From Clostridia bacterium (GTDB lineage Bacteria; Bacillota; Clostridia; Oscillospirales; Acutalibacteraceae), in assembly GCA_017440965.1 (NCBI GenBank), contig JAFSGH010000040.1:1-46549 (forward strand): 46,549 nucleotides of DNA. Reading direction: 5' to 3'. The notes under the pieces were generated by a model, which did not search any database, had not been told where the DNA came from, and saw only the letters and a program-made list of their open reading frames with translations. This document shows positions 9,212 to 41,010 of this stretch, one piece after another (the first letter of the stretch is position 1; each line of letters opens with the position of its first letter). The position numbers were made by a program, and so were the translations under genes.

Positions 9212-9214
9212 TAT

Positions 9215-11451: not shown

Positions 11452-11460
11452 ATATTAACG

Positions 11461-11499
11461 CCTATCCGTCCGTTTTTCGGGCGGACAGGTGCTTTTTTT
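11461..11499 (+). terminator. Terminator between GH4 and the propeller fusion gene
   Basis: CCTATCCG (11461-11468) pairs with CGGACAGG (11482-11489) with one mismatch, and is followed by TGC and seven T. It may reduce expression of the next gene relative to the first three, or end the operon. Confidence 0.75.
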
Positions 11500-11524
11500 C
11501 AATATATAGTTTAGGAGAAGAGAG

Positions 11525-13627
11525 ATGAAAAATTATTCACTTAAAACAAAGGCAGTTCCTCAGAAAATAAGAACTCTTTTTGATACCTCTTCAGGACTTC
11601 CGTCCGCAAATATAACGGCTCTTTGTTACGGCAGTAACGGTACTTTATATGTGGGCACAAATAACGGTCTTGCATATTTTAACGGTACGGGCTTTGATGT
11701 GGTAGACGGTGTCTCAGGCTGTGTCGGTGCAGTTTTTTACGATAAAAACGGAACTTTATTTGCAGGTGCGGAAGAAAATGTATATTCTGTAGTTGACAAC
11801 AAAATTATCGGAAAGCAGACATTTTCTTCAAAGGTAGTAGATATAAAGGCTGACGATACAGGAAAAATATGGCTTGCTACGGTCAAGGAATGCTTTTATT
11901 ATGATACAGACAGATTTTTAAGACTTCAGGGCTTTGATTTTGAAAACACGCATTGTATGACCGCTTACGGTGACAGAGAGGTTTTTGCCGCTTGTGATAA
12001 GGCTCTTCTCGTGCTTCACGGTAAAAGACCGAGATGGAGCACTCTTATGCCCGGTATCAGCAATGCCCCGAGAAATATAAGAACTCTTGCAAGTGATTCT
12101 CTCGGTTATGTATGGGTAGGAACAGACTCAGGCGTGTATCTTTATGATGGAAGAAGTGAATGGGTGAAGCCTGATGAACTGGATTTCTTCCCGAAGTGTG
12201 CAATAAATAAAATAGTTTTCGGTACAGACGGAACCGTATATTTTGCAACTGAAATAGGTGTTTATGTCGTAAGCGGTGCAAAGACGAGATTCCTCGGAAA
12301 AGGCAGATATATTCCCTCTGACAGAGCAGTTGATGTGGCTGTCAGAAGCGATAACGGTGAGTATTGGATAGCTACCGATAACGGACTTTCCCGCATTGAG
12401 CTTAAGGAAATGACTCTTTCCGAAAAGGAAGCGTATTTTGACGGTATTATGAAGCATTATAACCGTGAAGATTTTTACACCGATGTGGTTGTTAAAAATT
12501 ATATGGATCCTTTGGAAAGCGGAACTCCCTGCATCACAGATAATGACGGACTCTGGTCTGCATTATATGTAGGCGCTTTATGCTTTAAGTATGCTGTAAC
12601 CAAGGATGAAGAAATAAGAGAAAGAACCGTAAAAGCAATGAGGGCACTCGTAAAGCTTCAGACTATGACGGGTATTTCAGGCTTTCCCGCCCGTGCTTAC
12701 CGCCGCCCCGGAGAGGACGGCTTCGGTAACGGTGATCCCGAATGGCATCTGACAAAGGATGAAAAAGGGGAGCTTGAATGGAAGGGTGAGACCTCCTCCG
12801 ATGAGCTTGTAGGACATTATTTTGCTGCTGCCTATTTCTGTGACCTTGTTGCAAATGAAGAGGAAAAGAAAGAGGTTGCAGATGCTGTAAAAACTGTAAC
12901 AGAGCATCTGATCGCTAATAATTTTACTCTTTGCGATACAGACGGTCTTCCCACCACATGGGCTCATTTCGGACCTGAGGCACTTAACGGAAATGAAATG
13001 TGGTGCTGGGAAAAGGGTATAAATTCTCTTGAATTAATGGCATTTATGAGAATTACTGAGCATATTACCGGTGAAAAGAGATACGGTGATATAGCAGATG
13101 AACTTCTTAAAAAACATCATTACGGAATGAATCTTCTTACCTACAAGAGATATGACAGCTATGCTAATCATATTGACGATCTTCTCGGTATATTATCCGT
13201 TTTACCCTTATGGGACTACGAGAAGAATGAGGCAATGAAAAAATATCTTCTTCTTGCTCTTCGCCGTCAGTTTGAATATGAAAAGATAGAGGCAAACCCC
13301 ATATACAATTTCATCTATGCATATTTTACCGGTGCACATGCAGATATCGAAAGTGCAATTGAAACACTTGAGGATCATCCTCTTGATATGTTTGAATACA
13401 AAACCGATAACTCGATCCGTCCCGATGTTGAAATTAACTACGGCCCCGTAGAGTTTGGTGACGGTCCTCAGGCATTAAAGGCACTTGCTGCCGACGAAAG
13501 AGGTCTCGGAAGACTCTCTTATGAGGCCTTCAATCTCAATAAAGGTAATGACATAAGCTACGCTCCGCCCTCAGAATGGCTCCTCGGCTATTGGCTCGGT
13601 GTTTATTACGGTATAATTGAAGAATAA
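11525..13627 (+). CDS. Cytosolic beta-propeller / alpha-toroid fusion protein, putative glycan-active enzyme
   Basis: The protein has 700 residues with no signal peptide or membrane helix. Residues about 1-300 carry repeated propeller blades of the two-component-regulator-propeller type: LYVGTNNGLAYFNG, VWVGTDSGVYLYDG, VYFATEIGVYVVSG and YWIATDNGLSRIE. Residues about 310-700 are helical with aromatic and acidic patches (DNDGLWSALYVGALCFKYA, GISGFPARAYRRPG, WAHFGPEALNG, EMWCWEKGINSLELMAF, PPSEWLLGYWLGVYYG). These look like an (alpha/alpha)6 toroid glycosidase or lyase, but I cannot name the family. The propeller is usually periplasmic and fused to sensor kinases, so a cytosolic fusion to a toroid is unusual. 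The AGGAGA site supports the start. It may end the amino-sugar operon or be transcribed separately. Confidence 0.8.
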   Translation: MKNYSLKTKAVPQKIRTLFDTSSGLPSANITALCYGSNGTLYVGTNNGLAYFNGTGFDVVDGVSGCVGAVFYDKNGTLFAGAEENVYSVVDNKIIGKQTFSSKVVDIKADDTGKIWLATVKECFYYDTDRFLRLQGFDFENTHCMTAYGDREVFAACDKALLVLHGKRPRWSTLMPGISNAPRNIRTLASDSLGYVWVGTDSGVYLYDGRSEWVKPDELDFFPKCAINKIVFGTDGTVYFATEIGVYVVSGAKTRFLGKGRYIPSDRAVDVAVRSDNGEYWIATDNGLSRIELKEMTLSEKEAYFDGIMKHYNREDFYTDVVVKNYMDPLESGTPCITDNDGLWSALYVGALCFKYAVTKDEEIRERTVKAMRALVKLQTMTGISGFPARAYRRPGEDGFGNGDPEWHLTKDEKGELEWKGETSSDELVGHYFAAAYFCDLVANEEEKKEVADAVKTVTEHLIANNFTLCDTDGLPTTWAHFGPEALNGNEMWCWEKGINSLELMAFMRITEHITGEKRYGDIADELLKKHHYGMNLLTYKRYDSYANHIDDLLGILSVLPLWDYEKNEAMKKYLLLALRRQFEYEKIEANPIYNFIYAYFTGAHADIESAIETLEDHPLDMFEYKTDNSIRPDVEINYGPVEFGDGPQALKALAADERGLGRLSYEAFNLNKGNDISYAPPSEWLLGYWLGVYYGIIEE

Positions 13628-13629
13628 TG

Positions 13630-13669
13630 AAAAAACTGTAAGTTGCATAGTCGCAACTTACAGTTTTTT
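13630..13669. terminator. Bidirectional terminator between convergent operons
   Basis: A perfect 17-bp inverted repeat (13630-13646 and 13653-13669) with a 6-nt loop carries six A at the left and six T at the right. It serves both the plus-strand propeller gene and the minus-strand rhamnosidase locus. Confidence 0.95.
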
Positions 13670-13684
13670 GTATATTGATTACAA

Positions 13685-15837
13685 TTATCTGACAGTAATT
13701 TCTCCCGTGATTTCTGAATTCACAAAACGATTCCCGTTTTTGTCTGTTTTAATTTCAACGATGATTTCGCCCCATTTTGTTTTCATTGAGCCCTTGACAT
13801 TTTTAAGTTCAGGGATATGAGCCGGTTCTATGATTATTTCCTCATAGCCTGCTTTGTCATTGAATCTTTTGATGCCCAGTATTTCAGAGAAAAAGTATTC
13901 AATGACAGCACCGAACATAGGATGACATCTTGAATCACAGCCGTCCCAGTTTTCCCAGAGTGTAGTAGCACCGTGCTTTTTCATATTATAGAAGGATGCC
14001 TCTTCTTCATTGATAAGAAGCTTGTATGCGATATCACCTCTGTCGAGAGTAAACAGCATTCTTATGAGCAGATCCGTTCCGAAAATACCTGTGTCAAAGG
14101 TGCCGAGCTTTTCGTATTTATCAATAAGATTTCTCTTTGTTGTTTCATTTCCGAGACCTATGTCAAGTGCGAATGCGTCAGCTCCCTGAACACCGTTGCA
14201 GAAGCTTGCGGTATCCTCATTATAATAGTGCTTTATGATCGCATTTTTGCTGTCCTCTGCAAGCTTATTATAAAATGCCTTATCATCCTCGAAGCCTAAA
14301 ACTTCAGCGGTTTCAGCTGTCATCTCTGCACATTTTGCAAGGAAATATGTGTTGACGAAGGCTTCGGGGATAGTGACCTTGTTATGAGGAGGACACCAGT
14401 CGCCGAGACACCAGCCGCCCTTTTCCTCGCTTGTAACAATTCCGTCCTCACAGTGATTTACCATATATTTAAGGTAAGCCTTCATTGATTCATAGGATTC
14501 CTCAAGAACGGTTTTGTCATTATAGAATTTATAATAGCGGTAGGGAACGATTACGGCAGCACCGCCCCAGCCTCCGGGACCTCCGCCTCCTCCGTAGAAG
14601 GGAGCCGTATGCTGAACATGACCGCCTGCCTTATCCTGACAGTCTCTTATATCAGCCATCCATTTTTTGTACATCTGACGGGCATCAAAGACGCTCATTA
14701 CTGCACCGCAGGTAAGCTGTCCGTCGCCTGTATAGCCGAGTCTTTCTCTGTGGGGACAGTCGGAGGGAATACAGCCGTGAATATTAGCGTTCTGAGTCTT
14801 TACATATGCATCAAATATCCACTGAAGTGTCTCGTTGTCACAAGAAAAATCGGAAATCTTATCAAGGTCAGTCTGAATAACTCTGTATTCGGTAAGGTGG
14901 CATATTCCCGTTACTTCAATATATCTTGCTGCGTGCCAGGTGAAGTGCGGATGAAAATCCCGGCCTTTTGCACGCATATCATATATAAACTGATCTCTCT
15001 GCATTCTTGATGTTCCGCCGGTATAGTGGAACTGAAGGCTTCCGTCGGCATTCAGCTCATCGGCATAACGAAGCACGGCTCGTTCATTGTTTCTTGCATG
15101 CTCTTCAAACTGAAGTACTGCATAGCCTGCCGCTAATTCACCGATATCATATATCTTCATATCGCCGAATTCGTAGATAAGCTTCGGCTCAAGAGTTCTT
15201 ATGACCTTATCGGAAGGGAAGAAGCATTCCTCTAAAACAGTATCAGGTGCAGTTCTACTTCTGAGTATTCCCATGCTGAATCATCAAAATCAGAGATCTT
15301 CCAGTTCTCGGGATAAAGCCTTGCATCATGATATTCACCGTAGTAAAGGCTTGTTTCAAGAATATAGCTCTTTCTGAATTTTGTATTCTCAGAGGAGGAA
15401 TTTATAAAAGTAATGTTTCCGTTTGTGTCGGTAAGCTTTATTGAAAATACAAGGGTGTTATCTCCCCAATAGGGCATACCCTCGTTGGGACTTTCGTGCT
15501 GACCGTACCATCCTGCACCTATATGTACGCCGAGAATGTTATTATCCTTGATTGAAGATGTTATATTATACTTATAATAATAGATTCTGTGCGAGAGAGT
15601 ATCGTATATCGGCATATGAATACCTGAAAGATCTCTCTTTTCGTAGTCTGTCATCGCAGGAATGAAATGCTCGTCGGATACCTTTTCTCCGTTTATAAAA
15701 GCTTCAAAATAACCGAGTGCCGTAATGTAAAGAACAGCCTCTTTTATATTGTCGGCGGTGAATGCAGTCCTTGTAAGAACTGCATCCATACCGGGATATG
15801 TAAGCCAAGTTGAATTGTTAAAAACCTCAGAACTCAT
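13685..15837 (-). pseudogene. GH78 alpha-L-rhamnosidase gene split by a frameshift
   Basis: Two minus-strand frames together make one GH78 enzyme. The N-terminal part (15837 to about 15256) holds the Bac_rhamnosid_N-type module (YPENWKISDFDDSAWEYSEV). The C-terminal part (about 15256 to 13685) holds the six-hairpin domain with the GH78 signature SDCPHRERLGYTGDGQL (acid residues) and ATTLWENWDG. At 15254-15258 the frames change: GAA GTA reads on into GAACTG, whereas the family-like continuation RTAPDTVLEE needs AGA ACT. One base, probably an A near 15256, is missing. The joined protein would be about 716 residues. The enzyme would release terminal alpha-L-rhamnose in the cytosol. As read, it is broken; a base-calling error is possible because both halves look otherwise intact. 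Five nt separate it from the upstream GH2 gene, so the two form an operon. Confidence 0.85.
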
Positions 15838-15841
15838 AGTT

Positions 15842-18800
15842 TTATCCTTTCGTAGGAATTATTGTGAAGCTGAACTCCATAACCTTATCAGCATTAAGTC
15901 TGAATTCCTCTCTTGTGTCGGGACCGCAGCTTGATGAGCCGATACCTCTTGTAAAGCCGTCAACCGTAAGGTATGTTGTGTTCATATCCTTTACATCCTC
16001 CTGATGCTCTGCTTTATTGATAGCAGACTGTGAGGTGTGATGGACACTGAAATTAAAGGGAGCATCGCCGTAAAGGGCAACTGTATTTTCACCGTCGGAA
16101 AGCTTCAGCCAGCGGGTGTCGCAGTGCATTCCGTTTTCCTGGGGGAATACATAAGGCTCGTACATATCCTTTATCTTAGCACTGTAAATTCCTACAGGTG
16201 ACTGTGCCTTGAAATCAGGCATGTTTTCAGCCTCACCTCTTCCGAAATACTGAGCAGTATCAAATGAACGGTCAAGCTCAAGTGTTACGCCGAAGCGGGG
16301 AATATCAGAAACTGCTTCGGGATTTATCTTTCTTAATGCAGTTTTTATTTCCATTGCACCGAGAGAAGAGATCACATATTTGATAAACCAGCTGTACATT
16401 GCCTTTCTCTTGTATTTCATTGAATAAAGCACATCAATTTCAATTTCGCCGTCTTCAATGGATGCTGAGAAATGCTCGAGATTCTTTTTAAGCTTATTAA
16501 GACCGCCCTCAGCCCACTTATCACGCATTCTTGCATCGTTATCGATAAGTGCTCTGTAAAGATTGAGATTTATACCGCGGCCTTCGGCAGGAGAAGTGTT
16601 TAGAAGCTCTTTTCCGTTTACGGTATAAGAGGTCAGTTCACCGGTATTGCCGTCAAAAACAGCCTTGCCGTTATCGTAAATAACTGTAAGGATACCGTTT
16701 TCGGATTCAGCAGAAATACGGCTACCTATCTCGATATCATATTCACAGTCAGATACAGCAAGCTCAATCTGTTCAACTGCGATCTCAAGACCTGTTTCTT
16801 TGTCGGTATAAGTGAAATTGATATAGCAGTCTGCACCTTCCTTGATCTTTACATCGGAAAGGGTAATTTCTGATGTTTTCATAGCATCGATATCAAGCTC
16901 AATTTCACCGTTCTTTTCCGTGATACCGTTTATCTGATAATCATACCTTATTGCGATATATGAGGAATTGCGGAAACGGTTTGTGTTTGTAAATGCGAAT
17001 ACTCCGTCCCCTTTATACTCGGCACGAACAGGTCTGTAAACTACCTTCATGCATTTAGCACCCGTATGGAGTCTTCTGTCTGCATACATAAGACCGTCAA
17101 CGCAGAAATGACCGTCGTGCTGCTTTTCGCCGTGATCTCCGCCGTAGGTATACTTATATTTGTATTTATCGCTGCCGTCGTGATAAACTGCGTGATCTGC
17201 CCATTCCCAGATGCATCCGCCCATAGAATTATCCCATTTATAGAATAAATCCCAATATTCTTCAAGATTGCCGGGGCCGACACCCATTGCGTGAGCATAT
17301 TCGCAGAGATAGAAGGGATACTTTGAATATTCCCTGCAAAGATAACTCTTGTCATCGTAATGTCTTATTCTTTTGCCCTTTATCATATTTTCAATTTCTT
17401 CAGTAGATGTATACATTTCGGAAATAACATCATAATGGAAACGCTTTGTTCTTACGACGCCCTCATAATGCACGGGAATCGGAGTGCCTGTGGATTTGAG
17501 GAACTGATAGCACTTATCGTGACACTTATATCCGCCTGCCTCATTGCCGAGAGACCACATAATGATCGAAGGATGGTTTCTGTCTCTGTAATACATTCTT
17601 TTTACTCTGTCAACATAATGCTTTGCCCATTTAAGATCGTGGCTTATGCGGCTTACATCGTCAAACATCTCGCCGCAGCCGTGAGTTTCAATATCTGCCT
17701 CGTCAATAACATAAAGGCCGTTGATATCACAGAGTGTAATGAAATAAGGATCGGGAGGGTAGTGAGATGTTCTGACGCCGTTACAGTTAAGCTCCTTCAT
17801 AAGACGGACATCTCTTTCCATATCCTCTAAGGACATAGAATATCCCTTATAAAGATCGGTATCGTGATGATTTACACCTTTAACCTTGATAGGCTTATCA
17901 TTTACATAGAAGATGCCGTTTTCAATTTTTATTGTTCTGAAGCCCATAAACTGTCTTACCGTCATCATTTCCTTGCCGTCTTTGATAACGGTAAGATAAA
18001 GAGCATAGCAGGTGGGAACCTCAGCATTCCATTCCGTAACGGAAAGGTCGCTGAAGCAGATATCCGCTTCCTTGTCCGCACAGCCTGAGGCCAAGAGATT
18101 TTTATTTCTGTCAAAAAGCTCTGCCTTTACGGTGCAGTCCTTGTCTTCACCCAGCACGGTTTTTACGGTAAGACTGTATGTATTGCCGGTTTTTTCGGTT
18201 ACTGCTTCAAAATCATAGAGATAGCCTTCAGGATAATTATAGAGAAGAACATCTCTGAAGATGCCGTTTTCTCTGAACATATCCTGACACTCAAGGAAGG
18301 TGCCGTTGCACCATTTGAACATTACAACGACTATTTCGTTTGTACCCTCAGAAAGAAGGGGAGTGATGTCAAATTCGGCAGTGTTATGGCTTCCCTCCGA
18401 ATAGCCTGCAAATTTTCCGTTTATATAAAGTGAAAGGTTATTGGAAACGCCGAGGAATGAGATTATATGCTTTGCCGACAGCTTTTCAATTACTATTGTT
18501 TTTCTGTATATACCGACAGGCATATCCTCAGGAATTGAGGGAGCAATGGTTTTTATCTCATAGGGGCAGTTGAGGTAAACGGGCTCCTGATAGCCTGTTC
18601 TCTGCCAGTCTGAGGGGATAGTTACCGTGTCAAATTTTGTTTTGATCGTATCAAGTCTGTCAGGTACATCATTGATGGATTTATAAAATCTGAAATTCCA
18701 TTCTCCCGAGAGAACACTTACGATATCCGAGGAGTAACGCTCTTTTTTATAGCAGGTGCTTTTAAGCAGTTCGGAATTCCCGTATGCAACCGCATAGGCT

Positions 18801-29687: not shown

Positions 29688-29721
29688 ATTTATGTAAGAT
29701 TTGTTCTTGAAAGGAGCTTAT

Positions 29722-30429
29722 ATGAAGATCTGCATTTGTGATGATGACATTTTTACGGTAAAGGAGATCAGAAATCTGCTTTTACCGTTTCAGACAGAAG
29801 ACGGTTTTGAAATTTCCGAATTATACAGCGGAGAAGAACTGCTTGAACATTATGAAAGCGGCAACAGCTTTGACATTATTTTTCTTGACATAGAAATGCA
29901 GGATATTAACGGTATTGAGGCTGCAGAGCGGATAAGACAACTGTCTGCCGATACAATTATAATTTTTGTTTCCGCGCATCAGAATTATATTTTTGACGCA
30001 TTCAGAGCGGAAGCTCTCCATTTTCTTGTAAAGCCTGTTAAGGAAAAAGAGTTTTCTGAAGTTTTTAACAGAGCTATGAAGAAATATGCAACGGTAAATT
30101 CAGATATAGTGCTGAAATGGGAAAGCACGAGAAACAGGATCTCGGTAAATAAGATAAGCTATGTTGAAGGTTATCGCAGACACCTGACTGTTCATACATC
30201 TGAAGGGATATTTGAGTCTGTCGGAAAGATATCAGAGATATATGAGCTTCTGAGACCTCACGGTTTTGTTCGTGTTCATCAGGGCTTTATAGTTAATATG
30301 AATCGTATTAAACACTTCAGAACTAATGAGATTGAGCTTGTTGACGGCTCAAGAGTTGCTGTCAGTGTAAGAAAAAAACAAGAGGCTTTGAAGACCTATG
30401 ATATTTTTATAAGAAAGTGCGGTTGGTAA
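29722..30429 (+). CDS. LytTR-family response regulator (AgrA-like)
   Basis: The protein has 235 residues. The receiver domain contains CDDD (about residues 6-9), phospho-acceptor Asp56 (IIFLDIEMQDING), and the VSAHQ and FLVKPV switch residues. The C-terminal LytTR domain contains RISVNKISYVEGYRRHLTVHT, FVRVHQGFIVNMNRI and a final ELVDGSRVAVSVRKK strand. The start at 29722 has an AAAGGAG site; the frame from 29701 lacks one. The kinase gene begins 1 nt after its stop. It likely controls the repeats at 29444 and 31716, and so the peptide gene and the ABC genes. Confidence 0.95.
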   Translation: MKICICDDDIFTVKEIRNLLLPFQTEDGFEISELYSGEELLEHYESGNSFDIIFLDIEMQDINGIEAAERIRQLSADTIIIFVSAHQNYIFDAFRAEALHFLVKPVKEKEFSEVFNRAMKKYATVNSDIVLKWESTRNRISVNKISYVEGYRRHLTVHTSEGIFESVGKISEIYELLRPHGFVRVHQGFIVNMNRIKHFRTNEIELVDGSRVAVSVRKKQEALKTYDIFIRKCGW

Positions 30430-30430
30430 A

Positions 30431-31732
30431 ATGATAAGAGTTATTGCTTATATTCTTTTTGCTTGTGTTGAGATATACACTATGGATATGCTGTTTAAGA
30501 ATATGTCAAAAAAGAAGCTTACGGGAATAATACTTCCTGTTTTTATGTTAACGGCTGTAACAGTCAATACTGTTGTTTCATATTTTTTTGCGGGGACAGG
30601 TGTGATGCTTCTGGGATTAGGTGTTATCACAGCATTTGTATTTGCTCTGGTGTATAGTGTAAAGATACATTTTGCGATCATCAGCAGTGTTCTTTTCGTT
30701 ATGATACAGGCAGGCTTTGAAACTGTCATAACCCTTCTTACAAGTCTGTTTATCGGAACCGGAACAATTAATTTTCTGCAAAATGATTATATCTTTCTCG
30801 GAATGGGCTTGATATGTAAGTTTGCGGCATTTATGTTCATCTTTTTCGTTTCAAAAAAAGTCGGAAAGGTTGATTTAGGAATTTCAAAGGGTATTTCAGC
30901 TCTTCTGATGATTCAGCCGATTGCAACCGTTTTTGTTACATTGGTGATGCTTAAATGTAATTACGGACTTGAAAGTATTCCCGCTGTTTTGTTTTCTGCT
31001 GTCGCAGTTTTGATGATAGCCTCAAACCTTGTTACACTGTTTCTTATTTACAGACAAAAAGATTATATAGAGGCAAAGGAACGGCTCAGCTTTGCAAACG
31101 AACAGATAAAAAATCAGCTTGCTCACTATGAAGAGCTTTACCGCTATCAGAATGAAATCAGAGCTTTCAGGCACGATATTAAAAATAAAATGCTGTCTGT
31201 TGCAGGACTTATTGCAGACGGTCAGATCGAAAAAGCCGCGGAAGCAGTAAAGGGAGAGGCAGATTTCCTTGATGAAGCGAATAACAGTGTAATAAACTCG
31301 GGAAATCCTGCAATTGATGCTGTTTTGCAGTCAAAGCTTGTAACGGCTGAAAAGAAAAACATCAGGCTTGATTTTACCGTAAGACTTTCCGAAGAACTAT
31401 ATGCGGATGTTCTTGAACTCGGTGTTATTATCGGTAATGCACTTGACAATGCAATTGAAGCAACCGAGGCTATCGGAAAAGACAGAGACAAAACGATTTT
31501 TGTGAAAATCCTGTCTATGGGCGGCAGAATAGTTATTTCCGTTGAAAATCCTGTAAAAGCTGAGGTTGATACAAAGCATATTGGAACTGTTAAGGCAGAT
31601 AAACTAAACCACGGATACGGACTCAAGAGTATTAAGACGATTGTCCAAAAATATGACGGCGATGTTTTTGTTTCCTGTGAAAGAAATGTATTCACAACAA
31701 GCATCAACATCTGTAACACTTTTGCACATTAA
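30431..31732 (+). CDS. GHKL-domain sensor histidine kinase (AgrC/ComD-like)
   Basis: The protein has 433 residues. About six membrane helices occupy residues 1-205. A coiled linker carries the phospho-acceptor His248 (IRAFRHDIKNKM). A GHKL ATPase follows with the N-box ALDNAIEA and the G-box GYGLKSI near the end. This polytopic layout is that of peptide-pheromone receptors. It is translated with the LytTR regulator. Its last codons overlap the second LytTR-type repeat (31716-31724). The ligand is inferred to be the upstream peptide, not shown. Confidence 0.93.
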   Translation: MIRVIAYILFACVEIYTMDMLFKNMSKKKLTGIILPVFMLTAVTVNTVVSYFFAGTGVMLLGLGVITAFVFALVYSVKIHFAIISSVLFVMIQAGFETVITLLTSLFIGTGTINFLQNDYIFLGMGLICKFAAFMFIFFVSKKVGKVDLGISKGISALLMIQPIATVFVTLVMLKCNYGLESIPAVLFSAVAVLMIASNLVTLFLIYRQKDYIEAKERLSFANEQIKNQLAHYEELYRYQNEIRAFRHDIKNKMLSVAGLIADGQIEKAAEAVKGEADFLDEANNSVINSGNPAIDAVLQSKLVTAEKKNIRLDFTVRLSEELYADVLELGVIIGNALDNAIEATEAIGKDRDKTIFVKILSMGGRIVISVENPVKAEVDTKHIGTVKADKLNHGYGLKSIKTIVQKYDGDVFVSCERNVFTTSINICNTFAH

Positions 31733-31745
31733 AAAAACACTATTG
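31716..31745 (+). promoter_or_regulatory. Second LytTR/AgrA-type direct repeat, upstream of the ABC exporter genes
   Basis: ACACTTTTG (31716-31724) and ACACTATTG (31737-31745) have the same 21-bp start-to-start spacing as at 29444. The first copy shares the 14-base string TAACACTTTTGCAC with the other site. It lies across the 3' end of the kinase gene. Confidence 0.65.
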
Positions 31746-31754
31746 CAGAACATA

Positions 31755-31783
31755 TTTAAATCGTTTCATTTTTGATCTATTAT
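31755..31783 (+). promoter_or_regulatory. Probable activator-dependent promoter of the ABC genes
   Basis: TTTAAA (31755-31760), a 17-nt spacer and TATTAT (31778-31783). The -35 is poor, as expected of an activated promoter. The distance from repeat to -10 is 10 bp, or one helical turn, shorter than at the peptide promoter. Confidence 0.45.
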
Positions 31784-31794
31784 GAATCCGAAGC

Positions 31795-31826
31795 GGCGAA
31801 GGCTATGCTTTCGCCTTTATTTTTTT
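31795..31826 (+). terminator. Terminator-like hairpin after the kinase gene and at the start of the ABC transcript
   Basis: GGCGAAGGC (31795-31803) pairs with GCTTTCGCC (31807-31815) with one wobble and is followed by TTTATTTTTTT. It should end the kinase transcript. RNA starting from the promoter just upstream (about 31790) would begin within this hairpin and carry it as a 5' stem. Confidence 0.8.
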
Positions 31827-31870
31827 CGGCAGATAAAAGATGACGAACAGTAAAAAGGAGATGAAATGAT

Positions 31871-33688
31871 TTGAATGTAAAAAGAAAAAAATACAGTTAC
31901 ATAAGTAATCTAAGCTTTATGCTGAAAGAGCATTGGAGGTTTGATAAGTCTTATGTTATTACGCAGGCTGTATTGACACCGTTGGGAGCATTGACATCGG
32001 TTATTGCAGCATATTTACCGAAGATAGTTCTTGATTGCGTTGAGAACCGATCAACAGCCGGTGATATGATCATTAAGGTCAGCATTATGTCTGTTTTTTT
32101 GATGATATTCAGCTTTATGCAGGGAGGAGCGCAAACAAAAATACATCAGGGAAACAGGCTGACAAGAGATGTTATGCTTCATAAACTCATTTGCGACAAG
32201 ATCATGGATATGGATTATAACAATTATATCTATAATGAGACCCGTCTTTTACGAGAAAAAGCCTGGAACGGTGCCAGAAGCTGGGAAAGCAGTGTTGCAA
32301 GATTTCTTGAATACAACTGTACGCTTGCATCTTCGGTGTTTGGCTTTTCTGCATTCACGGTAATAATTGTTGAATGTAACCCGTGGTTTATTCCTATTCT
32401 TGTCATCAGCTACGGCATAAGCATGCTCGGATGGTTACTGCTGATGAAGTGGAAGGACAAAATGAAAGACAAGGTCGCTGAGATATTCCTTCGTTTGCAC
32501 TATGTGACATACCGTTCAAAGGATTTTTCAAATGCAAAGGATGTAAGAATATATAATATGTCCGATTTTCTTATGAGAAAGCTTGATAAGCATCTTGAGG
32601 ATGTTACCGGATGGAATATTGCAAGAAACAACGGACATTATTACAACTGTATGCTTGAAGATGTGCTGAAATTCGCCATAAGTGTCGGAGCATATGTTTA
32701 TCTTATTTATCTTAAGATCAATTCTGATATGACTCTCGGTGATTTCTCCCTTTATTTCGGTGCAATAACCGGTTTCGGACAGTGGATAGCAAGGCTTGTT
32801 GATTCAATAGCAGAAATGCTCACAAGTGCACATAATGTCAGTGATTTCAGAAGCTTTCTTGATATTGAAGATAAGATGAATAAGGGAAAAGGTGAAAAGC
32901 TTCCCTCGGAAAATGCTTTGCCCTGTGAGATCGAGCTTAAAAACATCACTTTTGCTTATGATGAAGCAGAGAAGGCAACAGTTGAGAAATTTTCATTGAA
33001 AATAAATAAGGGTGAAAAAATTGCAATAGTCGGGGTAAACGGTGCCGGAAAGTCAACTCTTGTCAAGCTTATCTGCGGTCTGTTTATTCCGCAGGAAGGT
33101 CAGATACTTATAAACGGTACAGACAGCCGGCTTTTCAACCGAGATGAATATTACAGATTGTTTTCAACTCTCTTTCAGGATTGTTCACTTCTTCCTGCAA
33201 CAATTGCAAAAAATATTGCTCTCTGCGAAGAAGAAAAAATTGACCGCGCAAGACTTTATGAGTGTATGCGTCTTGCGGGAATTCTTGAAAAGGTCAATTG
33301 TCTTGAGCTAAAGGAGAATACTTTGCTTGTGCGGGAGGTTCACGAGGGAGCGGTAGCTTTTTCGGGCGGTGAGCTTCAGAGACTTCTTCTTGCGAGAGCT
33401 CTTTATAAAGATGCCCCTGTGATCATACTTGATGAGCCTACTGCGGCGCTGGATCCTATAGCTGAAAATGATATGTATATGAAATACAGTGAGCTTACAA
33501 GGGATAAAACAGCAATCTACATTTCGCACAGGCTTTCCTCAACACGCTTTTGTGACAGAATAATCCTTCTTGATAATGCTGAGATCGTAGAATCGGGAAC
33601 TCACGAGGAATTGATATCTCTCGGCGGCAAGTATGCTGAAATGTTTGAAACTCAAAGCAAGTATTACAGAGAGGAGGCGGTAATATGA
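31871..33688 (+). CDS. ABC exporter half-transporter 1 (membrane and ATPase domains)
   Basis: The protein has about 605 residues. Six membrane helices (about 30-320) are followed by a nucleotide-binding domain with Walker A GVNGAGKST (about 389-397), Q-loop FQD, signature SGGELQR (about 497), Walker B VIILDEPTAALDP (about 520) and H-loop ISHRLSS. There is no N-terminal C39 peptidase. The start is TTG at 31871, 10 nt after AAGGAG; no ATG in frame is better placed before residue 17. Its last 4 nt overlap the second half-transporter, so the two probably form a heterodimer that exports a peptide or lipid. Both ATP sites look intact. Confidence 0.92.
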   Translation: MNVKRKKYSYISNLSFMLKEHWRFDKSYVITQAVLTPLGALTSVIAAYLPKIVLDCVENRSTAGDMIIKVSIMSVFLMIFSFMQGGAQTKIHQGNRLTRDVMLHKLICDKIMDMDYNNYIYNETRLLREKAWNGARSWESSVARFLEYNCTLASSVFGFSAFTVIIVECNPWFIPILVISYGISMLGWLLLMKWKDKMKDKVAEIFLRLHYVTYRSKDFSNAKDVRIYNMSDFLMRKLDKHLEDVTGWNIARNNGHYYNCMLEDVLKFAISVGAYVYLIYLKINSDMTLGDFSLYFGAITGFGQWIARLVDSIAEMLTSAHNVSDFRSFLDIEDKMNKGKGEKLPSENALPCEIELKNITFAYDEAEKATVEKFSLKINKGEKIAIVGVNGAGKSTLVKLICGLFIPQEGQILINGTDSRLFNRDEYYRLFSTLFQDCSLLPATIAKNIALCEEEKIDRARLYECMRLAGILEKVNCLELKENTLLVREVHEGAVAFSGGELQRLLLARALYKDAPVIILDEPTAALDPIAENDMYMKYSELTRDKTAIYISHRLSSTRFCDRIILLDNAEIVESGTHEELISLGGKYAEMFETQSKYYREEAVI

Positions 33689-35559
33689 AAAAGATTTTTT
33701 CAGGAATAAAGGAAGATTACGAAATTGTAAAGCAGGGCTTGAGACTTGTTAAAATATATCTCGGTAAAAACTACTTTTTGCTTAATCTTATTGTTAAGAT
33801 CTTGCGTGCTGTTTCACCTTACATAGCTATTTATTGCACCGGACTTGTTATTACTGCACTTAGTGAGAAGCAAAGCTTCAGACAGATAGTAATGTATGTT
33901 CTTGTTGCTACTGTTTCCACTCTTGTAATTGATATCGTCATCCGCACTGTTAACAGAAAGGCTCTTATAATGCTCAACAGCTGTTATGAAAAGCATTCAG
34001 CTCTTCTTTCAAGAAAAGCATTAGAGCTTGATTATGCAAAAGCAGAAAGCTCTTCAGTGCAGGAGCTTCGCGGCAAGATCGAAGAAAATGCCAACAACGG
34101 AAACGGTCTTACATGGGTGGCTGAATGTGTAGCGGAAATGATCTCCAATATATTTTCCGTTGCTGTTGCCGTCGGTATGATTTCCGGAATGGTCTTCAGT
34201 CGATCAAAAGCACAGCTCACAGGCTTTATGGCGTTTGTTGATTCACCATGGCTTGCAATTATGCTTATTGTTTTTTGCATAATTGCGATCGTTATTTCTG
34301 TCAGGTATCAGGAGCTGAGCGAAAAAAAGAAATTTGATATTTTTAACAGAGCTGTTAAGTTTAATCCGATCCTCGATTATTATAATCAGAAATATCTCAA
34401 CGAAAATGAAAGCGGTAAGGATGTCAGAATTTTTGATGTCAAGGCTCTTATCAAGGAAGAAATTGATGAGAAGATATATAAGCCGATCATAAGCATGAGA
34501 AGAGATGTGTTCAGATTATGGGCAACAATAGGGCAGATCAGTAACATTTCTGCCAACTTCCTGGGCGGCCTCGTTTATCTTTTTGTAGGTCTTAAGGCTC
34601 TTGCAGGTGCATTTGGGGCCGGAAAGATCGTTGAATACTATGGTGCAATAACTAAGCTTATCTCATCCTGTACAACTATTGCGGGCGATGCAGGTTACCT
34701 TCGTGCAAATAATATTCAGCTTAAGCAAGAGCTCGAATATCTTAATCTTGTTTCTGATATGAAAAACGGAACAAGAAAGGTTGATGGGATAGATCCCTCC
34801 GATTCAGTTTTTGAGTTTCGCAATGTTTCCTTTACCTATCCGGAAACAGAGACAATGATCCTTAAGAATTTCAGCATGAGAATTGAATCGGGTGAGCATC
34901 TTGCTGTTGTCGGTATGAACGGAAGCGGAAAATCCACAATGATAAAGCTGCTCTGCCGTCTTTATGATCCTACAGAGGGTATGATCACGCTTAACGGTAT
35001 TGATATCCGTGAATTCGATTATTCCGAATACCTGAAGCTGTTTGCTATCGTTTTTCAGGATTTTAAGCTTCTTGCGTTTCCGGTTGGTGAAAATGTTGCC
35101 TGCTCGGATGAATATGATGAGGAAAGAGTCTGGCGGTGTCTTGAAATGGCAGGCATCAGAGAAAGAGTGGAGGAGTTTCCAAAAAAACTGAAGCAATCAA
35201 TATATAAGCTGTATGAAAAGGACGGAATAGATCTTTCGGGAGGCGAGGAACAGAAGATAGCTATTGCAAGGGCACTTTATAAGGATGCTCCGTTTGTTAT
35301 TCTTGATGAACCGACCGCCGCGCTTGATCCTATCGCGGAGAGTGAAATATATTCAAGATTCAATGAAATTGCAGGTAATAAAACAACTGTTTATATTTCT
35401 CATAGACTTTCTTCCTGTCGTTTCTGCAGCAGAATCGTTGTGTTTGACAACGGTACGGTTATTCAGGAGGGAACACACGAGGAATTGCTGAGCTTTCCTG
35501 ACGGCAAATACAGTGAGCTCTGGAATGCTCAGGCACAGTATTATAACAATGAAAAATAA
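33685..35559 (+). CDS. ABC exporter half-transporter 2 (membrane and ATPase domains)
   Basis: The protein has 624 residues with the same layout: a membrane domain (about 20-330) and an ATPase with Walker A GMNGSGKST (about 410-418), signature LSGGEEQK (about 517), Walker B FVILDEPTAALDP and ISHRLSS. The start overlaps the first exporter gene by ATGA and has GAGGCGG upstream. It lacks a peptidase domain. Its substrate is most simply the small peptide at 29553, given the shared LytTR-type operators (inference). A terminator follows. Confidence 0.92.
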   Translation: MKKIFSGIKEDYEIVKQGLRLVKIYLGKNYFLLNLIVKILRAVSPYIAIYCTGLVITALSEKQSFRQIVMYVLVATVSTLVIDIVIRTVNRKALIMLNSCYEKHSALLSRKALELDYAKAESSSVQELRGKIEENANNGNGLTWVAECVAEMISNIFSVAVAVGMISGMVFSRSKAQLTGFMAFVDSPWLAIMLIVFCIIAIVISVRYQELSEKKKFDIFNRAVKFNPILDYYNQKYLNENESGKDVRIFDVKALIKEEIDEKIYKPIISMRRDVFRLWATIGQISNISANFLGGLVYLFVGLKALAGAFGAGKIVEYYGAITKLISSCTTIAGDAGYLRANNIQLKQELEYLNLVSDMKNGTRKVDGIDPSDSVFEFRNVSFTYPETETMILKNFSMRIESGEHLAVVGMNGSGKSTMIKLLCRLYDPTEGMITLNGIDIREFDYSEYLKLFAIVFQDFKLLAFPVGENVACSDEYDEERVWRCLEMAGIRERVEEFPKKLKQSIYKLYEKDGIDLSGGEEQKIAIARALYKDAPFVILDEPTAALDPIAESEIYSRFNEIAGNKTTVYISHRLSSCRFCSRIVVFDNGTVIQEGTHEELLSFPDGKYSELWNAQAQYYNNEK

Positions 35560-35704: not shown

Positions 35705-35733
35705 TTGAATTTTTCTTTTTATATTGTTATAAT
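35705..35733 (+). promoter_or_regulatory. Sigma-A-type promoter of the metallo-cluster operon
   Basis: TTGAAT (35705-35710), a 17-nt spacer and consensus TATAAT (35728-35733), about 30 bp upstream of the first gene. Confidence 0.85.
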
Positions 35734-35765
35734 TAATTTATCATTTATTTAAGGGGATATTTTTT

Positions 35766-36530
35766 ATGGAAAATAATGCAAAGATAATTGCGTTGTCCGG
35801 AAAGGGCGGTGTCGGTAAGACATCTGTTTCGGCGGCAATAGTCAAATTGTTGGTTGAAGCATATCCCGATAAGAAGATACTTGCAATAGATGCCGATCCT
35901 GCAGTCGGTCTTTCGACCGCTTTGGGTATAGAGGTTGAAACAACTCTCGATGATATCCGTAAGGAGATCGTGGCTACTGTCGAGGACGGAAACACAAAGG
36001 CTGCTATAGAGCTTCTCGGTGATGCAAGATATAAGATATTTGATGCTCTTGTTGAAACAGACGGCTTTGCATTTATTGCGGTCGGCCGTCCTGAGAGTGC
36101 AGGCTGTTATTGTAAAATAAATGCTTATCTCAAAGAGGTCATAAGCCTTCTTTCTGCAGATTTTGATTATGTCGTTATAGACGGTGAGGCAGGAGTTGAG
36201 CAGATAAACCGAAGGGTAATGGAGAAGGTCACACATCTTTTATTGATAACCGATGCCAGTAAAAAGGGAACACAGGTCATCTCAACAATAAAAAGCGTCG
36301 CAGATGAGCTTGTTATGTACAAGAAGCTTGGGGCAATAGTAAACAGAATACCCGATAAAAGCATTATTGAGCATATCAATACTAACGGTATTCCTGTTCT
36401 TTCTTATATAGAATCTGATAATAATCTTGCTTTTTTCGATATTGAAGGAAAAAATATCATGGAGCTTCCCGAGGATTCCAATATCGTAAAAGGTGTAAGA
36501 CAGGCACTTCAAGAGCTTGAAATATTATAA
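35766..36530 (+). CDS. CooC-type nickel-insertion ATPase (MinD/ParA fold)
   Basis: The protein has 254 residues. The deviant Walker A GKGGVGKTS is at residues 12-20, the switch IDADPAVGL at 41-49, and Walker B DYVVIDGEAGVE near 135-146. The motif CYC at Cys114 and Cys116 matches the CxC pair that in CooC binds nickel at the dimer interface. CooC loads nickel into CO dehydrogenase, and AcsF into acetyl-CoA synthase. Here no CO dehydrogenase gene is nearby, and the last operon gene resembles part of acetyl-CoA synthase. It starts after AAGGGG and is the first gene of the operon, 12 nt before the next. Confidence 0.9.
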   Translation: MENNAKIIALSGKGGVGKTSVSAAIVKLLVEAYPDKKILAIDADPAVGLSTALGIEVETTLDDIRKEIVATVEDGNTKAAIELLGDARYKIFDALVETDGFAFIAVGRPESAGCYCKINAYLKEVISLLSADFDYVVIDGEAGVEQINRRVMEKVTHLLLITDASKKGTQVISTIKSVADELVMYKKLGAIVNRIPDKSIIEHINTNGIPVLSYIESDNNLAFFDIEGKNIMELPEDSNIVKGVRQALQELEIL

Positions 36531-36542
36531 AGGAGAAAAAGT

Positions 36543-37748
36543 ATGAAGGATCTTAAGCATCTTTACGAGTTTGAAAAGCTTTTGCAGGAAGCAAATAATG
36601 AGCTTGTTCAGAAGGCAAAAAAAGACGGCAAAATTGCACTGGGATATACCTGCTATCATATTCCTGAAGTGCTGCTCAATTGCGGAAACTGCTTCTCTGT
36701 AAGACTCAGAGCCCCCCGTACTGGCTCAATGGATATAGCAACCTATTATATGAGTAATTTCCTTTGCGGATATTCAAAGGCTATTCTTGAAAGGGCAATT
36801 GAAGGGGGATATAATTTCCTTGATGCATATCTTGCATCTGAGACCTGCTCGGAAATGAACAGAACGGCAGAGCATTTTGAGCTTCTGAAGCTTGTTGAGA
36901 ATGATAAATTTTTCCTGTCATTCCTTGATATGCCTTTTAAGATAGAAGAGCATACCGTTAAGCATTATGTCAATCAGACGAGAACAAAAATACTCGATAA
37001 GCTGAGTGAGGTCTACGGAGTCGATACATCAGATGAGGCTCTTCTCAAGGCCGTTGAGGAGCATAATGAGGTATGCAGACTTATGACAGAGATAGGGGAG
37101 TACCGAAAAGAGGAGAATCCCAGAATAACGGGATATGAGTATCATATTCTTAATCTTGTTACATATTGCTGTCCGAAAGCTCTTATTCTTCCTTCTCTCA
37201 GGGAAACTGCCGAGGAGCTCAGAACAAGAGAGGCAGACGAAAAGAAGAGCTACAGAGCAAAGATCGTTGTTGTAGGCTCTGAAATGGATGATCCTGACTT
37301 TACCTCCCTTATAGAAGACAGCGGTGCTCTGGTGGTTGCCGACAGATATTGCTTTGGTGCATTGCCCGGAAGACAGGAGATAAAAATATCCGAAAACGAG
37401 GATGTGCTTACCGCAATTTGTCTTCATTACCTTAAGACAAGTCAGTGTCCCAGATTTATGAGCCACGAAAAGGTGCAGGAAAGACGGGACTATGTAAAGA
37501 AGCTTGTTGAGGAGTATAATGCAGACGGAGTAATGTACGAGCAGCTGAAATTCTGTGAGTACTGGGGATATGAAAGAGCACTGGCATCCTATGTTATGAC
37601 AAATGACTACGGTGTACCTACAGCAGCTGTTGACCGTCAGTATACGGCTTCTGCTTCGGGACAGCTCAGGACGCGTGTACAGGCTTTTGTAGAAAGTCTT
37701 GAAATCAAAAAGATACAAAAGGAAAGGGAGGCGAAGAAGAATGGATAA
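36543..37748 (+). CDS. 2-hydroxyacyl-CoA dehydratase family (HgdB/BcrC-type) subunit, smaller
   Basis: The protein has 401 residues. The family fold is suggested by GKIALGYTCYHIPEVLL (about 30-45), a Cys in NFLCGYSKAILE (Cys75), a Cys in LASETCSEMNR (Cys102), and a later Cys in EQLKFCEYWGYER (about 337), the usual places for ligands of a [4Fe-4S] or double-cubane cluster. Extra Cys37, Cys47 and Cys50 are near the N-terminus. Canonical members dehydrate 2-hydroxyacyl-CoA or carry out other low-potential reductions after ATP-driven electron delivery. No CoA-transferase is nearby, so the usual substrate is doubtful. Its 3' end overlaps the next gene by 8 nt. Confidence 0.85.
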   Translation: MKDLKHLYEFEKLLQEANNELVQKAKKDGKIALGYTCYHIPEVLLNCGNCFSVRLRAPRTGSMDIATYYMSNFLCGYSKAILERAIEGGYNFLDAYLASETCSEMNRTAEHFELLKLVENDKFFLSFLDMPFKIEEHTVKHYVNQTRTKILDKLSEVYGVDTSDEALLKAVEEHNEVCRLMTEIGEYRKEENPRITGYEYHILNLVTYCCPKALILPSLRETAEELRTREADEKKSYRAKIVVVGSEMDDPDFTSLIEDSGALVVADRYCFGALPGRQEIKISENEDVLTAICLHYLKTSQCPRFMSHEKVQERRDYVKKLVEEYNADGVMYEQLKFCEYWGYERALASYVMTNDYGVPTAAVDRQYTASASGQLRTRVQAFVESLEIKKIQKEREAKKNG

Positions 37749-39270
37749 TTACGGCAGACTTTATAAAGAGCATACAGCTTTATTGAAGCACAGAGAATGG
37801 CGCGGATTTAAGGATACGATGTATGATTATTACCGCTGGCTTGTGACCTGGAAAGATATGATAGTTATGGTGCTCAAGGCTCCCGTATCTACGGTAAAGG
37901 GTATCTGGCGTTACCGTTGGATGTCATCTTATCTTTCCGCTCCTTCCTTTATTGACAGACATGTGGCAGGCCTTACGGGACCTCAGCTTCGTATGGCTCA
38001 TCTTCATTATAATATGATAGTTAAGCATACGACAAAGCTTATCAATATCTCTCTCAAGGCAGACGAGAAGATAAATCCCGACAACAAGCTTTCAAAAAGA
38101 ATAGTTCTGATGGATGAGATAGTTCCTAATGAAGTATTTACAGGCTTTCCGAATCTGATTCCTATGCCTCTGCAGACTCTTCCCATTTTCCTTTCATCTA
38201 TGGTAGATCAGCAGATAACTCCTCCTTATCTTGAGGTTACGGAAAGCTTTGGTGTACCTGCTGATGTATGTCCTCTTCCCAGTGCGGAAGCAGGAGTTGC
38301 CATTGAAGATGATTATCCGAAAATGGGCTGCTGTATGATCGGTACCAATATGCCCTGCGACGGATCAATAATGAATTCATCCTTCCTTGACAGAAGATTA
38401 CAGCTTCCCACTCACTGCTTCGGAGTGCCTCTTCGTTATGACGGAGATGATGTTCAGGAGTACGCTGTTGAGGAGATAAGATCTCTTATAAAATTTGTCG
38501 AGGAGCAGACGGGTGAGAAGTTCAACTGGGATGCATATTTTTCCCGTATGAAGGATTATAACAAGCAGCTTGAATATGAGCGTCAGAAATGGGATATCAA
38601 TAAAACGCCTTATCCGCAGATGACAGGTGCCTGCTTCTGGCTTTACCGCATCTTTTACTTTAATCTCTCGGGTGGCTCAAATGAGAAATTCCTGAAGGTT
38701 GATGAAAAGGTAAATAAGATAATGCTTAAGGCATATGAGAAAAAGACTCCCGTATCAAAGGAAATGCGTCACCGTGCCGTTGTTTGGTCCTGTCCTGCAA
38801 ATTATTACACATCCTTTGCCAACTGGCTTGAAAACTGCTGGGGTATGAATGTTGTTATGGATATGGAAACAATGATCTCTTATCTTGAAATTGATACTGA
38901 GGATAAGGAGCAATCGCTGAAGGATCTTGCAAAAACATATCAGCGTTCCATTATGAGAAAGCATACCAAGGGCGGCTACCGCCATGTTGTTGATGAGCTG
39001 TGGCGTATCGTTGAGGAATATAATGCTGATACGGTCATTATGTATGATCAGATATCCTGTAAGGGTATGGACGGTCTTACGGGTATTTTTGACGATCAGG
39101 CAAGAGAAAAAGGCATTAATTTTATCTGGGTCCGTCAGGATCTTATGGATCCGAGAACTATATCAAGAAGAGAAATGCGCGATCAGGTAAATAAATATAT
39201 GCAGACGGTTCTTCAGGAAGAGCCTCTTGATGCTTCTCTCGTTGATTTTGAAGATGATTTAGCGTGGTAA
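37741..39270 (+). CDS. 2-hydroxyacyl-CoA dehydratase family (HgdA/B-type) subunit, larger
   Basis: The protein has 509 residues. It is a longer relative of the preceding subunit: SKRIVLMDEIVPNEVFTGF (about 118-136), a Cys-rich stretch with Cys177, Cys197, Cys198 and Cys206 (PKMGCCMIGTNMPCDGS), SCPANYYTSFANW in the middle, and DTVIMYDQISCKGMDGL near the C-terminus. The two subunits likely form a heterodimer with Fe-S clusters. The start at 37741 has GGGAGG; the frame from 37699 lies inside the previous gene. The N-terminal 110 residues are Trp/Arg-rich and not typical of the family. I cannot assign a substrate. Confidence 0.83.
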   Translation: MDNYGRLYKEHTALLKHREWRGFKDTMYDYYRWLVTWKDMIVMVLKAPVSTVKGIWRYRWMSSYLSAPSFIDRHVAGLTGPQLRMAHLHYNMIVKHTTKLINISLKADEKINPDNKLSKRIVLMDEIVPNEVFTGFPNLIPMPLQTLPIFLSSMVDQQITPPYLEVTESFGVPADVCPLPSAEAGVAIEDDYPKMGCCMIGTNMPCDGSIMNSSFLDRRLQLPTHCFGVPLRYDGDDVQEYAVEEIRSLIKFVEEQTGEKFNWDAYFSRMKDYNKQLEYERQKWDINKTPYPQMTGACFWLYRIFYFNLSGGSNEKFLKVDEKVNKIMLKAYEKKTPVSKEMRHRAVVWSCPANYYTSFANWLENCWGMNVVMDMETMISYLEIDTEDKEQSLKDLAKTYQRSIMRKHTKGGYRHVVDELWRIVEEYNADTVIMYDQISCKGMDGLTGIFDDQAREKGINFIWVRQDLMDPRTISRREMRDQVNKYMQTVLQEEPLDASLVDFEDDLAW

Positions 39271-39282
39271 AGGAGAATTGAT

Positions 39283-40083
39283 ATGAAATATTTTGGCGGC
39301 TGTGATGTAGGCTCAACTTATACGAAATGTGTTATTCTTGATGAAAACGGAAAAATGGTTGCCGCGGTTACAAACAGAAGTAAAATAAATCCTGTTGCAA
39401 GTGCACAGATAGCTCTTGATGATGCTGTTTCTCAGGTGGAAGGACTCAGCTCCGCTGAACAGCTTTCTTATCTTATCGGTACGGGATACGGCAGAAATAA
39501 GGTTCCCTTTGCTGATGAGAATATCTCTGAGATCAGCTGTCACGCAATGGGTGTTCATGTAACCAATCCTGAGGTAAAGGCAATAATTGATATCGGCGGT
39601 CAGGATGTAAAGGGAATTTCCATTGATACTGACGGTACTGTTAAAAACTTTGCTATGAATGATAAATGTGCTGCAGGCACGGGAAGATTCTATGAAGCAA
39701 TGGCAAATGCCTTCGAAATGTCACTGCCTGAGTTTTCAAAGCTTTCTCTTGAAGCAAAGAATACGATTCCGATAACTGCGCAGTGCACGGTCTTTGCCGA
39801 AAGTGAGGTTATTTCTCTTGTCGGTGAGGGAAAGCCTATGGATGAGATCGCTGCAGGCATTCAGCTTGCTGTTGCAAAGCGTTGCTTTGTTATGGCAAAG
39901 AAGGCTGGTGCAACAGACAGTATTACTCTCACGGGCGGATGTGCAAAAAATGACGGTCTGAAAAAAGCAATTGAAAAGGTGCTTAAGATAAAGGTTGTGG
40001 AGCTTGATACCGATCCTCAGCTTATGGGTGCTCTCGGTGCGGCAGAGTATGCAAGACAGAAAGGGCTCGCAAGGGTGAAGTAA
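39283..40083 (+). CDS. HgdC/BadF-type ATP-dependent Fe-S activator
   Basis: The protein has 266 residues, the size of HgdC. ASKHA features are GGCDVGSTYTKCVI (about 5-18), IIDIGGQDVKGI (about 101-112) and LTGGCAKNDG. The two cluster Cys occur in NDKCAAGTGRF (Cys129) and AQCTVFAESEV (Cys168), matching the pair that binds the bridging [4Fe-4S] cluster of the homodimer. It uses ATP hydrolysis to inject a low-potential electron into the dehydratase-type partner. It starts after AAAGGAG, 12 nt after the large subunit. Confidence 0.93.
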   Translation: MKYFGGCDVGSTYTKCVILDENGKMVAAVTNRSKINPVASAQIALDDAVSQVEGLSSAEQLSYLIGTGYGRNKVPFADENISEISCHAMGVHVTNPEVKAIIDIGGQDVKGISIDTDGTVKNFAMNDKCAAGTGRFYEAMANAFEMSLPEFSKLSLEAKNTIPITAQCTVFAESEVISLVGEGKPMDEIAAGIQLAVAKRCFVMAKKAGATDSITLTGGCAKNDGLKKAIEKVLKIKVVELDTDPQLMGALGAAEYARQKGLARVK

Positions 40084-40084
40084 T

Positions 40085-40243
40085 ATGAATGTAATTCTTA
40101 TAATTCTCGGCGTTCTTCTCGGCTTGTTCGTTGTAACCTTCGCGATATACTGGTTTAATCTTGATATGAAGCTTGTTAGAGTTGTTTACGACTGGCTCTG
40201 GAAGAACCGCTATGATAAAATGAAAAGGGATAAGAAGCTGTAA
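40085..40243 (+). CDS. 52-residue single-helix membrane protein in the metallo-cluster operon
   Basis: The protein has 52 residues. It begins MNVILIILGVLLGLF, one membrane helix (about residues 3-22), and continues with WFNLDMKLVRVVYDWLW and a basic tail KMKRDKKL. Its ATG comes 1 nt after the activator stop, and its TAA overlaps the next ATG (TAATG), so it is translationally coupled on both sides, which supports a real gene. It could tether the complex to the membrane. No family is recognised. Confidence 0.7.
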   Translation: MNVILIILGVLLGLFVVTFAIYWFNLDMKLVRVVYDWLWKNRYDKMKRDKKL

Positions 40244-40935
40244 TGGATTTTTTTGATTCCCTAATAAATGATGTATATTCTGCTCTGAATGACCTGCCGC
40301 AAAAGACATATGAGCATTCAGTTAAAGACTGTTGGACAGATATAGGCTACAATCAGGTAATACTTCAGAGGGATACTGCATTTCAGTTAAGCGGTACGGG
40401 TTTTAATCTTATAACTACCTCTGATATCAGGAATCAGATCATTGTTATCGGTGATGATCTGCAGAATATCAGGGATGACAGGCCTTTTGCAAGGATTTCT
40501 CTTGTTCAGATCGATGATGAAAATGATGAGCAGTCTGCATATGAGCTTATCCGCAAGATAGAGTATGTAAAGTATCATTATTTTCCTGACGGATTTATGC
40601 TGAGGACTTCTTCAAGATCGCATAAGGAGGCTGTACGCGTTGCAAAAACTGCTGTCAGAGACGGTATCAGCTTTCAGAAAACGGGAAGTCTTCTGATTGA
40701 AGGATATATGAAGATTCCTTCCGTTAAGGGCGTTTGTGTGATCTATGTTACTTATCCTGAAATCGATTATTCCGCTTTTGAAAAGCTTGCAGAAAAAAAC
40801 AATCGTATTACCGAAACGCTGAATCATATTGTAAACAGCGTGAATTTTGATTGCAGTACATGTAATCTCAAGGCAGTGTGTGATGAGGTTGAGGGAATGA
40901 AGGAGCTTCATTTCAAAATGAACGGTATGAAATAA
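40243..40935 (+). CDS. Acetyl-CoA synthase beta (AcsB/CdhC) middle-domain-like protein with Cys cluster
   Basis: The protein has 230 residues. From memory, the order of elements parallels the A2 region of acetyl-CoA synthase and the first A-cluster ligands: IIVIGDDLQNI (about 65-75), RISLVQI, a helix LIRKIEYVKYHYFPDGFMLR, GISFQKTGSLLIEGYMKIPSV, VCVIYVTYPE, and FDCSTCNLKAVCDEV near the end. AcsB has CxxCx8C at this place; here it is CxxCx5C, with the large catalytic C-terminal domain missing. A nickel or Fe-S site is plausible given the CooC-type gene in the operon. The start overlaps the preceding stop by TAATG. Known ACS proteins exceed 400 residues, so this is an orphan fragment or a distinct family. 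Confidence 0.65.
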   Translation: MDFFDSLINDVYSALNDLPQKTYEHSVKDCWTDIGYNQVILQRDTAFQLSGTGFNLITTSDIRNQIIVIGDDLQNIRDDRPFARISLVQIDDENDEQSAYELIRKIEYVKYHYFPDGFMLRTSSRSHKEAVRVAKTAVRDGISFQKTGSLLIEGYMKIPSVKGVCVIYVTYPEIDYSAFEKLAEKNNRITETLNHIVNSVNFDCSTCNLKAVCDEVEGMKELHFKMNGMK

Positions 40936-40969: not shown

Positions 40970-41010
40970 GACCGCTACGGCACTGTAAATTGCCGTAACG
41001 GTCTTTTTTT
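40970..41010. terminator. Terminator between the metallo-cluster operon and rsmF
   Basis: The 13-nt arms GACCGCTACGGCA and TGCCGTAACGGTC (one mismatch) are followed by seven T; the left flank is A-rich, so it can serve both convergent units. Confidence 0.92.

Follow-up and report, generated by a model that had tools for sequence, protein, structure and literature searches.

A conserved six-gene operon of gut Clostridia encodes a predicted low-potential reductase and a co-varying pair of CooC-like and acetyl-CoA synthase-like proteins

The 46,549 nt contig JAFSGH010000040.1 of a Clostridia bacterium (hereafter, the window) carries six genes, A to F, all on the + strand between nt 35766 and 40935, which recur together in related genomes. 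They encode a predicted two-subunit reductase core with its activase (B, C and D), a small protein (E), a CooC-like ATPase (A) and a homolog of one domain of acetyl-CoA synthase (ACS) (F). The favoured interpretation, held with about even confidence, is an ATP-driven reductase of very low potential, tethered to the membrane and belonging to the superfamily that includes class I benzoyl-CoA reductases (BCR), 2-hydroxyacyl-CoA dehydratases (HAD) and the double-cubane proteins (DCCP), with A and F as a dedicated insertion pair. The preliminary description of the region, which saw an unusual gene combination and an uncharacterised low-potential metalloenzyme, is upheld in this respect.

The core consists of B (nt 36543–37748), C (nt 37741–39270) and D (nt 39283–40083). 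Both larger subunits belong to Pfam family HGD-D (PF06050), scoring 311 (B) and 159 bits (C) against a cut-off of 28.4. D matches BcrAD_BadFG (194 bits) and the dedicated activase model TIGR00241 (216.8 bits; cut-off 125.4), making it an activase of the acyl-CoA dehydratase/benzoyl-CoA reductase type, in agreement with the HgdC-type activator named earlier. Six cysteines are invariant in B (37, 75, 102, 270, 302 and 338), and each aligns with a ligand of the BzdN double cubane, as listed in the available part of PMC11971306. C has exactly three (177, 206 and 440), which align with cysteines of MbdO and HadB, and its N-terminus is extended by about 80 residues relative to BzdO. The description of B and C as a dehydratase-type pair is correct at the superfamily level, but the six ligands of B are the set of a Bzd-type reductase and not that of a plain dehydratase. 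Neither is the pair a recognised Bzd enzyme (TIGR03190, TIGR03191; B 95.3 of the required 453.8 bits, C no match to bzdO) or a DCCP (NF040772; B 147.8 and C 54.6 bits, cut-off 350). Judged by its predicted clusters, the enzyme would work like a Bzd-type reductase, but it lies outside that equivalog. No second HGD-D pair was found in the host genome (G000; 2.28 Mb, 86% complete).

Gene A (nt 35766–36530) encodes a MinD-type ATPase, placed by Pfam in the CbiA/ParA type. Its best match in the PDB is CooC (3kje, E 7e-20), with the CYC sequence aligned. All 12 A proteins in the alignment keep the deviant P-loop (GKGGVGKT) and the CxC motif. A has no invariant cysteine other than the two of this motif, Cys114 and Cys116, and the CooC-type pair reported previously is thus confirmed. 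A search for a second CooC in the host genome found none.

F (nt 40243–40935; 230 aa) scores 18.5 with the Pfam CdhC model, below the cut-off of 24. It matches ACS residues 316–495, and its predicted fold is that of the ACS A2 domain. The protein ends in a Cx2Cx5C motif (Cys204, Cys207 and Cys213), and in a joint alignment Cys204 and Cys207 coincide with cysteines one and two of the ACS motif (30/30 ACS, 17/17 F), which in ACS are A-cluster ligands. The position of Arg132 is also Arg in 30 of 30 ACS proteins, and corresponds to Arg429 of the M. thermoacetica ACS chain (counted by hand from the alignment). The A1 domain and a complete A3 domain with the A-cluster are absent, the chain stopping 17 residues beyond the third cysteine. 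The likeness to ACS noted earlier therefore holds, narrowed to an A2 domain with a short cysteine tail, as does the statement that the six genes include no carbon monoxide dehydrogenase (CODH), complete ACS or CoA-transferase. When 398 genomes of the phylum were searched with the CdhC model, the matches (112 genomes) were in frames of at least 360 aa, except for the F protein of G217.

A pattern and tblastn scan of a genome-contig collection with the C alignment gave 177 relatives, of which the best 80 were analysed. The complete six-gene set was present in 61 of these 80 loci, so that the grouping is above chance. A lack of co-conservation, named beforehand as the outcome that would tell against the proposal, was not seen. 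The order ABCDEF predominates (52 loci), followed by BCDEAF (7) and ADEFBC (1). The remaining complete locus, L041, has two different sets in tandem (nt 1074–11203), AFBC without D and E and then ABCDEF, as if one activase served two reductases. The other 19 loci are without one or more genes, many being truncated by contig ends. By their labels, nearly all of the loci come from one or another group of Clostridia, and many are from the guts of ruminants; in two cases (L057, L078) the operon is on contigs labelled as Erysipelotrichaceae and Bacteroides metagenome-assembled genomes, reflecting either transfer or mis-binning. Among the 80 loci there was no general conserved neighbour that would name a substrate. 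A gene for a class I S-adenosylmethionine methyltransferase (~195 aa) closely flanks the operon in 16 of them, on either side and strand (for example, L049 nt 11204–11776, L066, L104 and L058; supported by Pfam for two), but not in the window.

Occurrence is patchy. Searches of 26 genomes of the window's genus detected F in 10 and C in 9. The gene order A-F-D-B-C-E can be followed in full in L025 and L026, and in part in other loci that end at contig edges. F was found in none of 33 genomes outside the genus, in 5 of 295 genomes of the order (own genome included, one true ACS left out of the count) and in 2 of 398 of the phylum (own included). In another class of the phylum, 69 of the 97 genomes searched matched the F model. 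Full-size ACS frames account for nearly all of these matches, but six genomes carry short F proteins (frames of 240–277 aa). Three of the six loci (L153, L185 and L189) are of readable length: two acyl-CoA dehydrogenase-like genes, an identity confirmed by Pfam only in L185, come first, then one or two unknown genes, then B and C, a pair of activases, F and finally A. The other three loci are cut and show D-F-A. In L185 this BCR-like operon precedes another B, C and D set that resembles the window type more closely (nt 2948–16703 in all), and two proteins there have no Pfam match at E 0.01. For all 20 distinct short F proteins found by the F queries, D adjoins F, directly or across E.

Partial correlations of pairwise distances were calculated for 55 operons (54 loci and the window). 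Two pairs stand out, B–C (+0.69) and A–F (+0.66), followed by B–F (+0.34), with the others at or below +0.26. In the 50 operons with the order ABCDEF, where A and F are at opposite ends, A–F is the highest of the 15 pairs (+0.75) and B–C reaches +0.66; neither value was matched in 2000 permutations, a procedure that removes phylogeny incompletely. Five weaker pairs (BE, BF, CD, CE and DE; +0.20 to +0.29) were likewise never reached. A and F thus go together as a pair. We know of no other member of the superfamily with a co-evolving pair derived from ACS and CooC.

Three loci (L042, L043 and L044) show a joint divergence of A and F while C and D remain near the window versions, a possible joint replacement of the pair. 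In the two that were measured (L042, L044), A differs from that of the window by 26% and F by 62–64%, compared with 8–10% for C and 6% for D.

Gene E (nt 40085–40243) encodes a protein of 52 aa that was called by eye, being too short for the cut-off of the open reading frame list. It has an N-terminal hydrophobic segment followed by a conserved basic tail, and homologs at >80% coverage occur in 67 of the 80 loci. From these features E is likely to be a membrane anchor. In the proposed mechanism, E would tether the complex to the membrane and D would use ATP hydrolysis to push single electrons into B, where a predicted [8Fe-9S] double cubane would store them. The electrons would then move to a [4Fe-4S] cluster of C with an open iron, the putative site of substrate reduction. 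A and F would form a dedicated pair for inserting a metal or a cluster, co-opted from ACS biology: the CooC/AcsF-like ATPase would act on or through F, an A2 domain in which the first part of the A-cluster ligand motif is retained.

Several observations weigh against this reading. Every equivalog cut-off exceeds the scores of B and C, and the predicted model of C has a mean predicted local distance difference test score (pLDDT) of only 77. The link between F and the reductase is weak (F–B +0.27 to +0.34), and C–F is slightly negative (−0.17 in the 55 operons). Three loci of about 17.5 kb are incomplete: L072 and L093, which have long flanks, carry B, C, D and E but locally neither A nor F; L086 carries B, C, E and F but locally neither A nor D. 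To our knowledge, BCR, HAD and DCCP systems operate without CooC or F, so that A and F need not be maturation factors.

The most probable alternative, although unlikely, is that A inserts nickel or another heterometal into F, which would then serve the enzyme complex as a functional Ni-Fe-S subunit and not as a maturation factor. The CooC-type CxC of A, the placement of Cys204 and Cys207 on the ACS motif and the A–F covariation all favour it, and AcsF reportedly inserts nickel into ACS. Against it, the remainder of the ACS A3 domain is missing from F, and three markers of nickel use looked for in the genus, where several genomes are incomplete, were not found: none of 16 genomes (own included) gave the prismane/CODH domain (PF03063), and none of 26 gave [NiFe]-hydrogenase or CbiM. 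G000 has no ACS match at the threshold of the Pfam CdhC search; together with the CODH and [NiFe]-hydrogenase searches, this leaves no other client found for A. Rfam scans of the window and eight loci gave only tRNA and 6S RNA and no family by the operon, and a nickel riboswitch was rejected for these sequences. Few reasons were found for the nickel that the earlier description put forward as a possibility, and it is kept as a rival rather than a verdict. A related conjecture, which we consider speculative and of slightly lower probability, is a heterometal (Ni or other) member of the double-cubane superfamily. In it, A would load the metal via F into the double cubane of B or next to it, and the resulting new metallocofactor would reduce a small molecule at the membrane of herbivore-gut Clostridia.

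It is more doubtful still that the operon encodes an ordinary acyl- or aryl-CoA dehydratase or reductase with A and F as incidental passengers. B, C and D do belong to that superfamily, and the related operons of the other class adjoin acyl-CoA dehydrogenase genes. The position of BzdO His131, three residues past the second cluster cysteine, is Ser209 in 13 of 13 aligned rows of C; as it is Phe in MbdO, an aryl-CoA reductase, the missing His was dropped as proof against benzoyl-CoA chemistry, and the estimate for an ordinary CoA enzyme was raised slightly. However, A and F stay together with B, C and D across two classes and in rearranged orders. In addition, reading the open reading frames around the window operon, without a family search, brought up no gene for a CoA-transferase or for hydroxyacid or aromatic-acid metabolism. 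Least probable is that A and F provide a second, NifH-like ATP-driven input, a cluster shared at the CxC of A feeding B through F, as a MinD-type ATPase with a CxC and the F–B correlation might suggest, given that D already is an ATP-dependent activase, that A has no invariant cysteines beyond that pair, and that the CooC1 crystal is said to hold a metal ion and not a cluster.

The operon is compact, with intergenic gaps of no more than 12 bases; B and C overlap by 8 bases and E and F by 1, and 12, 12 and 1 bases separate the other neighbours. F is followed by a terminator-like hairpin (nt 40970–41003) with T-runs on both strands. Upstream of A is a weak promoter-like sequence (nt 35705–35733, + strand; TTGAAT-17-TATAAT, with TG preceding the second hexamer), but such matches are no commoner (12) than in shuffled sequence (13.9, standard deviation 4.0). 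Of the arrangement described previously, the six tightly packed genes and the hairpin stand, while the single promoter is unproven. Directly upstream (nt 29701–35559), genes read as a LytTR-like response regulator, a sensor-kinase-like protein and two ABC-exporter-like proteins resemble a peptide signalling and export unit.

The operon represents a recurrent two-subunit relative of this superfamily in herbivore-gut bacteria, with recognisable parts in a combination that looks unstudied. CooC together with an acyl-CoA dehydratase activase, or HgdC with CooC, occurred in no paper of the open-access literature searched, although an earlier mention is possible. The mlp/MtaA clusters were rejected as a known home of the operon (CooC, dehydratase and acetyl-CoA synthase each counted zero times in the available text of PMC10418091), as was the isoprene reductase operon, which has different genes in the accessible part of PMC10134865. 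PMC7306483 reports DCCP genes, and its available passages do not mention the operon; those of PMC12176620 and PMC10269723 have no bearing on it. Two testable questions follow: the role of CooC-like ATPases where neither CODH nor ACS is found, and whether a metal-insertion system can be a requirement of double-cubane enzymes.

Among characterised systems, the Bzd class I benzoyl-CoA reductase (BzdNO with BzdPQ; passages of PMC11971306) shares the six double-cubane cysteines with B, but B falls far under the bzdN cut-off and C has no bzdO match. The Bzd O subunit has three cluster ligands (Cys95, Cys128 and Cys380); C likewise has three invariant cysteines, placed by alignment on cysteines of MbdO and HadB. 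The operon further differs in its single activase, longer C N-terminus, membrane peptide, and CooC and ACS-A2 proteins. B also aligns with the DCCP of DCCP:DCCP-R (NF040772; 6eno, 7yyl), all six cysteines being kept, and D is an ATPase of the same type as its reductase. DCCP, however, forms a homodimer, each chain of which has a double cubane, while the partner subunit C has three invariant cysteines; and in the 2-hydroxyacyl-CoA dehydratases (HadBC with activator) the double cubane has been lost, whereas B retains all six cysteines (both according to passages of PMC11971306). Compared with ACS/CdhC, F lacks A1 and a complete A3 and has its third cysteine at a different spacing, but shares the A2 domain and the Arg132 position. 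Lastly, unlike the CooC/AcsF nickel-insertion ATPases, A has no CODH/ACS client detected (CODH, 16 genus genomes; ACS, G000), but it shares their P-loop and CxC motif and co-varies with an ACS-derived domain.
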